A stretch of DNA of 64,000 nucleotides from Progne subis subis. Its lineage: Eukaryota > Chordata > Aves > Passeriformes > Hirundinidae. The DNA lies in contig JAKJHU010000360.1 of the NCBI GenBank assembly GCA_022316685.1, forward strand, positions 124,001 through 188,000, written 5' to 3'. Below the pieces are notes generated by a model. The model saw only the letters and a list, made by a program, of their open reading frames with translations, was not told the DNA's origin and did no database searches. Made by a program: the position numbers and the translations under genes. The number at the start of each line of letters is the position of its first letter. Position 1 is the stretch's first letter. This document shows, in pieces, positions 44,156 to 49,919 of the stretch.

Positions 44156-44546
44156 TGTAGCAGGATTTTTGGAGACAGACACAGAGAGGCCTTCCAGTGC
44201 TTGGAAAGTTCTGTTGTTTTAGCACTGCCAAGGACATTGAGCCTGAGAACCAGGACAAAGAGCCTGGGAACAAGCTGATGGCCTCTCAACAAAGTGTAAA
44301 CAGGTAACTGCAAAGGAATGCTTATGCAGGTAACACTAACCAATAGTATAGCTGCCTGGAGCTCGTGGACAGGAGGAGATAGCCAATGACATGTAGTAAA
44401 ATGCCGTGTGAACAGCTTATGCACTAGAATGATGTATTTATAAAAGAACCCTTTGTACCCTCAATAAAATGAACATTCACCACTACTTCTGTGAAGAAGA
44501 TGTTTGACTCTGGCTGTTCCCCATGTTTTTTTCAAAATCATCTTTA
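44156..44546 (+). repeat. 5' LTR of ERV-4
   Basis: About 391 bases. The 3' end is set by comparison with the 3' LTR (CAAAATCATCTTTA against CAAAAATCACCTTCA). The two copies differ by substitutions and small indels. Confidence 0.8.
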
Positions 44547-44548
44547 AT

Positions 44549-44566
44549 TGGCACTGAACATCAGAC
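44549..44566 (+). promoter_or_regulatory. Primer-binding-site candidate of ERV-4
   Basis: TGGCACTGAACATCAGAC begins two bases after the LTR, the expected place and start (TGG). I cannot name the tRNA with confidence. Confidence 0.45.
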
Positions 44567-44829
44567 CTTGGGATGATGACCTGGAGGAGAAATTAGCAGT
44601 GGGATGCTGAGTAGATAGATGCTGGATTGCTGACAGATGCAGCTGCACTGAGGTGAGACCCTCCAGAAAATAGAAGTCAGACGCTGATCTGCTGAGAGAT
44701 GCATCAGCATTGAGGTAGAAGCTCGCCGTCCTTGCAAAGAGTGCGAGGCTGAGCTGATAAGGGGAACAGGGGCAGTTTTCTTGAAAACAGGTGGAAGGCT
44801 CTGAGTACTCCCTTCCCTGCCCCATTGAT

Positions 44830-45918
44830 GAGGCAAGCATGGAGTGCGAATTTGCTGCCACATTGAAGTTGCTTATTATTATACTCTGAGAGAGGAAAAG
44901 CAGTAGCAGAAAAAGTACTGCAAAAGCTGATTAACTGGGCGCAGGGAAATGGACATTTAACAACTCCGCGGCACTGCAAAGTCGGGAAAGTGCCGTGGGG
45001 CCCCTGCCATGCCCTCCCGCCGCCTCCAGCGCCCCGGCACCCTCACTGGCCGATGCCCCGCTCGCTGCTCCCGGCCCACGCACTGCCCCCGTCCCTCCGT
45101 GGCAGCGGCTCCATGGTGCCCGCCACCCTCTCCACCCCGCAGCAACAAGGAGGATGAGGAGAAAGTGACCCCCGGGAGTTCACACCGCCCCTGCCGCCAC
45201 CGCCACTGCCACCATGGGCCGGGGTGGGGGCCACCACCGCTCCCAGTGCACTGCTCCCACAACACATGCACCGAGTGCCCCCCCTACCCGGCTGTGCCTG
45301 AAGAGACACCGGTCGACCAAGAGAGGGGAACCCGTGACCCCTGCTGTCGACCACCTTCTCCCGACAATATTCCACTGCTGGACGAATTAGAGGAGGACCC
45401 AGTGGTGGAGCAGAACCCATAGCAGAACCCACAGCAGAACCCACGATTGGTTTAAAAGAACTGACTGAGCAAATTCAGGCAGTGATGCAATGCCTGGATG
45501 AATGAGGGCAAGCAGCAACTAAGCTGGTACTGGAAAAAGCCCAAGAATTATCTACAAATAAATGCTAAAAATCAGGAGGAGCCAACATCATTCAGCTCCC
45601 AGTTAACTCCAATGCAACAACTTCTAGAACAAACTGCAGAAAGCAGTTCCCAGGCAACACTTTTGCCTGCCCCCCCTGTGACTCGATGGTCCCAAATTAT
45701 AGGTGATGCTATACTAGAAGGACAGTGGGAACCCGCAGGACACATGGCATGTCCTGTAGCATGTCCTGTCATGTTCAGAGATGGCAATCCTGTGTGTGAG
45801 CAGCATGAATAGAAAAATCTTGCAACAAGCAAAAAAAAAAACACAGTAAAAGAGCACAGTTTGAATCTGAAAAGTGCTCGAACAATGTTAGATTGGATTC
45901 ATACTGAAGATATCCATT
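44830..45918 (+). pseudogene. gag of ERV-4 (matrix to capsid)
   Basis: Degenerate plus-strand gag. A matrix-like segment (LINWAQGNGHLTTP) lies near 44.93 kb. A long Pro-rich and GC-rich stretch follows at 45.0-45.4 kb, with frame breaks. Capsid-type sequence follows at 45.6-45.9 kb (RWSQIIGDAILEGQW and, later, RTMLDWIHTEDIHSP). In the capsid part the frame carries one TAG at 45810 and an expanded A run at 45830-45841, but the frame is the same on both sides. It stops in mid-capsid, exactly where CEPT1 begins. Confidence 0.6.
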
Positions 45919-47798: not shown

Positions 47799-48329
47799 AT
47801 GGACTCGGCCCGCAAGGAAGGAAAAGAAGGAAGAAGGATCATCAGGTCCTTGCTGAGACAGCTGGTGGTTGAGGCCGCTGGTGAACAACGCCCTCCTGAC
47901 CCAGACTGGGTTGTAGCGTGCATTATTGGTCACCAAGGCCCCTTGGGATCATTGGAACTTTCCCAGGGCTTGCATGAGTGGCAAGAAAAAGAGTGTCCTC
48001 AGTGTCAGAGAGTAATAGTTATAGAAGTGAGCTGCGGAGTTTGTGGTGCACAATTTGGGAGAGAGACACCAAAGCTTTGGTGTGAGGGTGGTTTGTGTGA
48101 CCATTGCTATAGTGGTACCCTTGGTGCCTTTTATCAAGCGGCACAGGTAGTGTTGGGAATACCTAACCCTGTTCCTGATGATTTTGGTGGAGTAGCAGAT
48201 TGGAGATTTGCGCAGACAGCATGGGCCATTAAGAGAGAGATGTGGCAGTTCCACATGGTAAGATGTTCTTGCGTGTTGTGTGCCTTTTGCTCATGGTGTC
48301 AACAAGTGTTGCAAGATCTTCTCAACTAG
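47799..48329 (+). CDS. Intact Cys-rich open frame overlapping env start
   Basis: 176 codons from an ATG in good context (GTAAATGG), without stop or frameshift although the neighbouring gag, CEPT1 and env are broken. The N-terminus is basic (SARKEGKEGRR). The centre has paired cysteines, ECPQC, then SCGVCGAQF, then C-x4-CDHC, a spacing that suggests a zinc-ribbon or RING-like fold. The C-terminus is again Cys-rich (CSCVLCAFCSWC). The last 67 bases overlap the env signal peptide at ATG 48263 in another frame. I do not recognise the protein. It could be an accessory protein of this retrovirus group, an env leader, or another captured host fragment. Confidence 0.45.
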   Translation: MDSARKEGKEGRRIIRSLLRQLVVEAAGEQRPPDPDWVVACIIGHQGPLGSLELSQGLHEWQEKECPQCQRVIVIEVSCGVCGAQFGRETPKLWCEGGLCDHCYSGTLGAFYQAAQVVLGIPNPVPDDFGGVADWRFAQTAWAIKREMWQFHMVRCSCVLCAFCSWCQQVLQDLLN

Positions 48330-49330
48330 CTCATTCATTTTCTATGAGAACTAATGTATGGGTGACATTTGCCAATGTGACTGGACAGGATTCTATTTGC
48401 CTTAGCCTGGCCAATCCCCCAAGACCCATTCAGAACTTGTTTGATAGGAACACCCCTTTGGAGCCCTCACAGTTTTAAAGGTTATGTGAAAAATGAGACA
48501 ATGCTGAATTTTACTGTGGCAAACAGCATGGTGTGAATGTCAGGTTTCAGCCGCCCAGGCTGATGGAGGCTGGCAGTGTAAAATTATAGAGCAACTTGAT
48601 GATAGGCTTACTTCACCACCAGAAGAATTAGACCTCCTTGGATGTATGAATGCCAGCTCTACAAATAGAAGTGAGGGAGGTTGGGTGTCCTTTGAGCCCC
48701 CCAGAGAGCAGTGTCTAAATATACATAGCCAGAAATGGGCTGCAATAAATTCAGCTTGACTATCTAGTGGCAGTGTACACCAACAACTTTATTCCAAATG
48801 TAATTTGACCGGCAAACCAGCACAACGCCTTCCACCAGGAACATTTTTAATATGTGGGGACCGTGCTTGGAATGGAGTCCCAGCCAGCCCACATGGGGGC
48901 CCATGGTATTTAGGGAAGCTTGCCCTGTTTCACCCTAACATAACCGCATTGATGACTTTAACAAAAGTCACTCAGAGAAAATGTGCCATACATGAGTTGG
49001 GACTGTACGGACATTGGAAATCCTATACTCTGGTCCCAGGCTAGGACAGTGTTAACATCCATGTTTATACCAGGAGCAACAGCCACCAGAGCAATGACCA
49101 CATTAAAGCAGATAGCATGCTGGGCAAAATCAGAATTGAATGTGACTAGCCAAATTTTAGATGAGCTATCAGCAGATGTTACCAATGTTAATCATGCTGT
49201 TTTGCAAAACCGTGCTGCGATTGACCTTTGCTTTTAGTACATAACCATGGGTGTGAAGAGCTTGAAGGAATGTGTTGAATGAACCTGTCTGACCATTCTG
49301 CATCTATTCACAAAAAAAATTGCAATTAAT
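48263..49330 (+). pseudogene. env of ERV-4
   Basis: Envelope region. The signal peptide starts at ATG 48263 (hydrophobic VVCLLLMVST), followed by surface-subunit sequence with N-glycosylation sites (NVT) to a stop near 48478. Frameshifts follow. A segment LPPGTFLICGDRAWNG lies at 48.84-48.88 kb, matching the FFICGD part of ERV-1 env. The transmembrane subunit then follows, with a FIPGATATRAM fusion-peptide-like start near 49.06 kb and a LQNRAAID heptad region near 49.2 kb. After a stop at 49236 the sequence corresponding to CX6CC is degenerate. It cannot encode a complete envelope. Confidence 0.7.
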
Positions 49331-49536
49331 GAAGAACAAATTACATGATTTGAAAGAAAGTGATAATGTATTTAGAGATTAGATAAGTAGCCTTCAGATA
49401 ACAAGATAGCTGAAGTATGTTATTAAACAATTGTTTGTTATATTATTACTTATATTGAGGGTTTATTAGTACTAAGTTGTGTAATGTCTTAAGAATATGT
49501 TGCGTGAGACAATATCTAATGCTCAGCTTGTGCAAA

Positions 49537-49551
49537 AGAAAAAGGGGGAAT
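49537..49551 (+). promoter_or_regulatory. Polypurine tract of ERV-4
   Basis: AAGAAAAAGGGGGAA, ending at the base before the 3' LTR region (LTR TGTAGCAGG at 49552). Confidence 0.75.
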
Positions 49552-49919
49552 TGTAGCAGGATTTTTGGAGATAGACACAGAGAAGCCTTACAGTGCTGGG
49601 AAAGTTCTGTTTGTTTTAGCACTGTCAAGGACGATGGATGGAGAACCAGGACAGTGAGCCTGAGAACCAGCTTTTTCCCTCAACAAAGTGTAAAGAGGTA
49701 ACTGCAAAGGAATGCTTATGCAGATAACACTAGCCAATAGAGAGTAGCAAAATGCTGTGAACAGCTTGTGCACAAGAATGATATATGTATAAAAGAACCC
49801 TGTGTACCCTCAATAAACGGAGCATTCACCACCTCTTCTGTGAAGAAGATGTTTGACTCTGGCTGTTCCCCGTGGTTTTGTTTTCATTTTGTTTTTCTTC
49901 CTTTCAAAAATCACCTTCA
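49552..49919 (+). repeat. 3' LTR of ERV-4
   Basis: Pairs with 44156-44546, with a block of about 25 bases missing in the part 'ctggagctcgtggac'. TATAAAAGAACCC and CAATAAAC are conserved. Confidence 0.8.

Follow-up and report, generated by a model that had tools for sequence, protein, structure and literature searches.

An endogenous retrovirus family of Progne subis subis with a spliced CEPT1 cDNA joined to gag in place of pol

Structure of the provirus

The DNA analysed here (the window) comprises 64,000 nucleotides of Progne subis subis (GenBank assembly GCA_022316685.1, contig JAKJHU010000360.1, positions 124,001–188,000 of the forward strand). Positions 44156–49919 of the window are occupied by a provirus with long terminal repeats (LTRs), the order being LTR, gag into the capsid region, CEPT1 with its 3′ untranslated region (3′UTR), an integrase remnant, an open reading frame (ORF) of 176 amino acids, env, polypurine tract and LTR, all on the forward strand. 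The provirus belongs to an endogenous retrovirus (ERV) family in which a spliced complementary DNA (cDNA) of the host gene CEPT1, extending from codon 79/80 to the poly(A) tail, is joined to gag and replaces pol.

The 5′ LTR (44156–44551) aligns with the 3′ LTR (49552–49919) at a Kimura two-parameter (K2P) divergence of 0.090 over 329 aligned sites. A sequence resembling a primer binding site (TGGCAC..) starts at 44554, directly after the 5′ LTR, and a polypurine tract read from the sequence, AAAAGAAAAAGGGGGAAT (49534–49551), lies immediately 5′ of the 3′ LTR. Both the matching LTRs and the purine tract recorded in the first-pass annotation are therefore real features of this element.

The gag remnant (45279–45919) extends up to the start of the capsid; its frame is broken and it includes an A-run near 45830. 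Its identification is based upon a tblastn match to the Hirundo protein P0043 (63%, 2.5e-79) and upon the presence of Gag_p24 in the related proteins P0001, P0002 and P0122, and on these grounds the capsid assignment made earlier stands; a Pfam search with the gag pieces of the window themselves returned no gag match. The stretch preceding gag is GC-rich and variable in length (window 44950–45300; copy L061, 5351–5878 on the minus strand), and its translation in L061 contains internal repeats.

The CEPT1 coding part (45920–46908) begins at TCCA (45920–45923) and runs without introns, and with several frame-breaking indels, from host codon 79/80 of 416 to the stop codon; the start had previously been placed too far downstream, at about residue 88. 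It is followed by the 3′UTR (46909–47542), recognized by its match to the host gene and ending approximately 80 bp short of the end reached in older copies. A frame at 45813–46271 spans the capsid into CEPT1 and possesses a CDP-OH_P_transf motif (Pfam, 3.5e-10), its best PDB match being CEPT1 (8gyw, 5.6e-47). Capsid and CEPT1 had been described as sharing one frame, which is correct over this interval and incorrect for CEPT1 itself, given its indels.

Next comes a 227-bp segment (47543–47769), delimited by nucleotide matches, of unassigned origin and present in many copies of the window's subfamily. Of 247 candidates the best 40 were scored, and these match it at 95–100%; there is also a weak match (78.6%) to window 25021–25133 on the minus strand. 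Special conservation of this segment was rejected, as its identity to copies L061–L063 (93–96%) falls within the 84–97% spread of other regions. The integrase C-terminus remnant (47770–47814) is 91% identical over 45 bp to positions 3374–3418 of L074, a relative with pol from the same genome.

The 176-residue ORF (47799–48329, from the ORF list) is rich in CxxC motifs and intact in the window and several copies, its 3′ end overlapping the start of env. Pfam and protein searches placed it in no family; its sole protein relative is Hirundo DUI87_27320 (87%). Since the ORF also occurs in L074, a second captured host gene was rejected, and it probably serves this lineage of ERVs as an accessory gene. 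The env remnant (48263–49300, the end being approximate), assigned from its ORFs and an Avian_gp85 motif (1.3e-13), comprises gp85 and the start of the transmembrane (TM) part in a broken frame, in agreement with the initial call.

Host CEPT1 and the 5′ junction

The host CEPT1 gene is located on contig C1358, and its spliced exons (exons 2–9 were mapped in the fetched pieces) specify an intact protein of 416 amino acids. The N-terminal 98 residues of CEPT1 gave three matches in the genome, one of them full-length at 94%, one at 61% and one weak and situated in an ERV copy; the 61% match (L065) would, in our reading, be CHPT1. One internal exon of the host gene (L067/L068) exists in two alternative versions, which match different bird proteins (forms P0005 and P0010), and the copies carry the P0005 form.

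Window positions 45920–47542 align in order to host exons 2–9 and the 3′UTR with small indels and no intron. This copy and L059 run through the positions of all seven CEPT1 introns, and L060 likewise follows exons 2–9, interrupted near exon 6/7 by an unrelated repeat of 735 bp. The latter (L060, 3504–4238) matches no host intron and has relatives (81–93%) in L059 and L046. When 300-bp pieces from both ends of the seven introns were used as queries, none of these 14 intron ends matched any CEPT1-bearing locus searched. We conclude that a spliced messenger RNA (mRNA) was captured, which vindicates the earlier description of the segment as intronless.

Mapping onto the host exons, proposed with the first-pass annotation, placed the 5′ junction in the middle of exon 2 and also located the 3′UTR. 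At the 5′ junction the host gene reads ..AAGAGTTCCAGCCTGG.. and the copies ..TTCTCCAGCCTGG.., and a CEPT1-free Gag protein from Hirundo rustica, P0122 (Gag_p24, 7.7e-33), reads ..AMLDWIHTADINSPLDCANIA... With the junction marked by a slash, P0122 has TADINSP/LDCANIA, the fusions have TADI.SP or TADINPP followed by residues similar to /AWIAPNL, and the host has VP/AWIAPNL. Viral and host sequence thus join at a common proline codon, where host and copies share TCCA, the parental gag being seen as protein alone. The fusion is in frame in P0001, P0002, copy L003 and, over 45813–46271, in the window; many copies are frameshifted.

The 3′ junction

The older form of the 3′ junction region is complete in four places (L059, L060, L012 and L029), in which the CEPT1 3′UTR is followed by an A-run and then, in all four, by the same env leader. 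The A-run directly follows AATAAACATTATCT in L060, is separated from AATAAACATTATCT by TAAGGG in L059 and L012, and is broken by G and T in L012; in L029 the end of the 3′UTR is missing. Past this point the host gene has a different sequence from the copies, and the captured message therefore retains its poly(A) tail. The border between poly(A) and env is an A/G-rich stretch.

At 29 distinct places, the window included, the 3′UTR ends approximately 80 bp earlier and the 227-bp segment follows. Based upon the order in L074 (integrase, 176-residue ORF, partial env, LTR) we attribute this second 3′ form to recombination with a relative at a later time. Inspection by eye showed no target duplication at either border of the CEPT1 insert.

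Copy number and distribution

The genome searched was that of the window (1.166 Gb in 2896 contigs). Frame 45813–46271 produced 150 matches (best 150 of 472 candidates scored) and the 3′ half of CEPT1 produced 157 (best 150 of 470 candidates scored), numbers which are not exact insertion counts because only the best candidates were scored and several rows are near-identical duplicates. A single-locus event was rejected on account of these many genome-wide matches. The element is a large repeat family and the hybrid multiplied, which goes beyond what had been proposed for this locus.

The junction of gag with CEPT1 is unbroken in 50 of the 52 fetched CEPT1-bearing rows, the exceptions being L015 and L046. 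Two rows (L023 and L049) overlap and represent one place, so that the 52 rows amount to 51 places; addition of L066, a further copy with the junction that lies outside the 52 rows and the clusters, gives 50 of 52 by distinct place. At 98.5% identity the 52 rows collapse to 40 clusters, L049 falling in that of L023. Of the 63 rows that were mapped onto the mRNA of the host, and from which the 52 derive, 58 begin at coding nucleotides 236–244, and L046 and L069–L072 begin later. L069–L072, of which L069 is the window copy, contain the 3′ part only and were excluded from the codon, strand-bias, indel and junction counts. The counts also exclude the host gene loci (L064, L067, L068 and L073), L065 and the relative L074. 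L001, L009, L020, L027, L028, L003, L032, L036, L042, L043, L044 and L048 were left out as the same place under another locus (for example, L020 is L060, L003 is L029 and L009 is L059). Some loci with CEPT1 form groups that share one score across contigs (C127, C251, C303, C2124, C2452 and others), and part of the copy number may accordingly be duplicated DNA or alternative haplotypes.

Comparison with other birds was made through protein records, in which annotated sets may mask repeats. With the gag-CEPT1 frame as query, the top two of 1883 matches (120 listed) were Hirundo rustica rustica P0001 (96%) and P0002, each of which holds Gag_p24 and CDP-OH_P_transf; P0043 stands lower among the matches listed. 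P0002 was not found in the genome of the window, where pieces of it occur at up to 87% among the matches listed. The barn swallow UniRef record of the fusion bears the name of the host enzyme, and such families can mislead gene annotation in this way.

Integration and loss of pol

CEPT1 lies between viral sequences inside two LTRs in the window copy, L059, L061, L062 and L063; the match in L060 covers the 5′ LTR to env only. Among these five copies, examined by eye from LTR to LTR, 6-bp target duplications flank L059, L062 and L063 without mismatch and L061 with a single mismatch. In these four the K2P divergence of the LTRs is 0.025–0.058. Songbird DNA accumulates 2–3.5e-9 substitutions per site per year, which would make the four copies roughly 4–15 million years old. 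Dating by divergence from the host 3′UTR was dropped, since 8 of the 9 fixed 3′UTR changes are G>A, presumably through editing on the viral stem.

L074 possesses RVT_thumb, RNase_H and IN_DBD_C motifs and has no CEPT1 between reverse transcriptase (RT) and env, its gag part not being covered. When its RT thumb, RNase H and integrase core were used as queries no core match was found inside the elements; the protease was not searched separately. The absence of protease, RT and most of integrase claimed by the first-pass annotation therefore holds for the three domains searched, the tail of integrase being kept. L026 also retains the integrase tail. The pol matches of L062 sit in its flanks, outside the LTRs, and the integrase match of L035 was judged by its strand to belong to a neighbouring element.

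The window provirus is inserted in an antisense ERV pol gene, which forms its left flank (43139–44155, minus strand; RVT_thumb 2.7e-13, RNase_H 4.3e-08). The right flank is an AT-rich repeat, in which no continuation of that gene was seen. A second ERV, in minus-strand orientation, occupies 20838–25133 and contains an env TM motif (TLV_coat, 1.8e-08) and an open frame of 618 amino acids (22883–24739) which gave no Pfam match at E 0.01.

Evolution of the CEPT1 segment

Differences from host CEPT1 were sorted by their share among the 40 clusters and scored as synonymous/nonsynonymous/stop, for which the neutral expectation is 0.27/0.70/0.03. Changes common to at least 20% of clusters (21/56/1; 21 synonymous of 78, p 1.0), those found in two or more copies (61/128/8, p 0.23) and private changes (89/259/7, p 0.44) all fit neutrality; the few fixed changes (8/5/1) are taken up below. 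Coding and 3′UTR divergence are about equal (0.049 and 0.047 in L060), the coding part being the higher in 8 of 11 copies compared. Several frame-breaking indels are widely shared: +1 at nucleotide 336 (38 rows), a deletion at 379–386 (43 to 48 rows), a deletion at 794–816 (33 to 37 rows), +1 at 1081 (31 rows) and +1 at 1182 or 1183 (30 and 10 rows, L060, L029 and L059 among them). This wide sharing indicates that CEPT1 was already broken during most of the multiplication of the element. From the root of the family onwards the gene resembles a passenger, with no sign of selection in its codon pattern.

Fixed and common changes taken together, those reaching 20% of copies or more, show a marked strand bias, with 62 G>A against 23 C>T on the plus strand (p 3e-5), while the compared sequence offers G and C sites in equal measure (368 and 367). 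The ratios at cut-offs of 10, 20, 30, 50 and 90% are 77:45, 62:23, 48:16, 32:12 and 11:2; the 20% set divides into 41:17 in the coding sequence and 21:6 in the 3′UTR. The 121 non-private G>A sites prefer the contexts GG and GA (p 2e-5), and the excess resembles the mark that APOBEC enzymes leave, here in an ERV of a bird. For zebra finch, editing of LTR elements by APOBEC is described as strong in PMC6523648, which cites Knisbacher and Levanon. As deamination of cytosines in minus-strand cDNA is expected to leave such a bias, the pattern supports replication of the CEPT1 piece as retroviral RNA, by reverse transcription, in early and widely inherited steps.

Origin of the hybrid

We consider it about 90% probable that the family arose by retroviral transduction of a polyadenylated CEPT1 mRNA through two template switches and that the hybrid, devoid of pol, then multiplied. 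Capture by template switching is supported by the spliced exons, the in-frame 5′ junction, the poly(A) tail, the loss of pol and the LTRs with 6-bp duplications, and the first-pass annotation had already favoured this origin from a packaged CEPT1 mRNA. In outline, one capture would have founded the family. CEPT1 mRNA would have been packaged together with viral RNA, and during minus-strand synthesis RT would have jumped to the poly(A) tail from the A/G-rich stretch just 5′ of env. Having copied the 3′UTR and most of the coding sequence, it would have returned to the viral template within the capsid region of gag. Multiplication of the hybrid presumably relied on the enzymes of pol-bearing relatives. 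The CEPT1 protein would have been dispensable, its frame breaking early with neutral evolution thereafter, and a later lineage, now the commoner one, probably gained the 3′ part with the integrase tail and the 176-residue ORF by recombination with a relative.

Several observations weigh against this account or weaken parts of it. A poly(A) tail is equally expected of a retrocopy made by a long interspersed nuclear element (LINE). The extent of the sequence shared at the switch point in gag (from CC to TCCA) is inferred, since the parent gag is known only as a Hirundo protein, and the use of helper enzymes is similarly a deduction. There is no G>A excess among changes found in at least two and fewer than 20% of copies (59 G>A, 62 C>T) or among private changes (66 and 75). 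The window copy has no target duplication by eye, and this, together with the higher divergence of its LTRs, suggests that recombination may have produced it. Neither the matches nor the 40 clusters give an exact number of insertions, and the deepest branch order is weakly supported (0.16 at one node). Finally, 8 of the 14 fixed changes are synonymous, more than expected (p 0.03); constraint on the host gene or a short selected stem can account for this lean.

It is doubtful, though worth entertaining, that the CEPT1 piece helped the founder virus, either through a gag-CEPT1 membrane enzyme at an early time when its frame was still intact or through the CEPT1 RNA (3′UTR and tail), which might have aided an unspliced defective genome in its export, stability or packaging. 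Such a benefit would explain the wide spread of a hybrid lacking pol.

Rather less probable is that selection maintains the gag-CEPT1 fusion as a functional gene of the virus, the lipid-metabolism counterpart of a transduced oncogene. The synonymous lean of the fixed changes would agree with this, as would the two barn swallow predictions combining Gag_p24 and CDP-OH_P_transf and the longer single-frame CEPT1 stretches retained by the early-branching copies L060, L029 and L059. However, the three larger classes of change fit neutrality, the coding sequence is no better conserved than the 3′UTR, and the C-terminal +1 is already present in L060, L029 and L059, with further frame breaks common to most copies.

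We attach still less weight to a CEPT1 retrocopy made by a LINE (CR1) that inserted in a provirus, with later deletion of pol and amplification of the composite. A spliced, 5′-truncated and poly(A)-tailed copy is what CR1 would leave, and a relative without CEPT1 does exist (L074). However, pol and the remainder of gag are gone between the junctions, the insert has no duplication at either junction by eye, and the 5′ junction is in frame at the common proline codon. The first-pass annotation had named a pol-bearing, CEPT1-free member of the family, together with a retrocopy having its own poly(A) tail and target duplication, as what would refute its own reading; the pol-bearing relative and the poly(A) were found, the insert lacks a duplication of its own, and pol is replaced rather than interrupted. 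In chicken, CR1 is held to produce few retrocopies, as stated in a section of PMC3136929.

Although the contigs are repeat-rich and some duplicates near-identical, an assembly or annotation artefact, raised earlier as a possible refutation, is refuted for the family by the same junction on many contigs, long ones among them (L060, 24.9 Mb; L008, 9.1 Mb; L062, 8.9 Mb; L061, 4.1 Mb), by target duplications in several copies and by the fusion in Hirundo rustica records.

Comparison with known systems

Gene transduction by retroviruses is known mainly from tumour-causing isolates, among which the acute transforming avian retroviruses carry gag-onc fusions. Like them, the CEPT1 family has an intronless host cDNA in frame with gag, viral genes replaced, LTRs kept and a presumed need for a helper. 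Unlike them, its cargo is a phospholipid-synthesis enzyme rather than an oncogene; the family is in the germline in many copies, its poly(A) is visible and its cargo is neutral as far as tested. Because of this neutral codon pattern we class the family as a product of transduction and not as an acute transforming virus. It would represent the process of oncogene transduction, here in the germline and with a housekeeping metabolic gene, and both switch points, the poly(A) tail included, can still be read in a genome that also holds a pol-bearing relative. Among the open-licence papers searched, none reported a germline family this large based on a transduced metabolic gene. The family raises the questions of how often retroviruses take up arbitrary mRNAs and what such hybrids need in order to multiply, and, given the few retrocopies made by CR1, what share of the retrocopy load of birds is due to retroviruses.

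Two further systems are outlined in part of PMC5408686. In LTR-mediated retroposition a chimera of an LTR element and an mRNA copy forms by template switching at short similarities. The CEPT1 chimera resembles it in the probable template switching and in the integrase-type insertion, and differs in having multiplied as a family, with a second 3′ form appearing later. The maize retrotransposon Bs1 is, in the same account, an LTR element with captured cellular genes, and shares with the CEPT1 family the carriage of captured host cDNA; unlike this plant element, the CEPT1 family is a vertebrate retrovirus with env, present in many copies.

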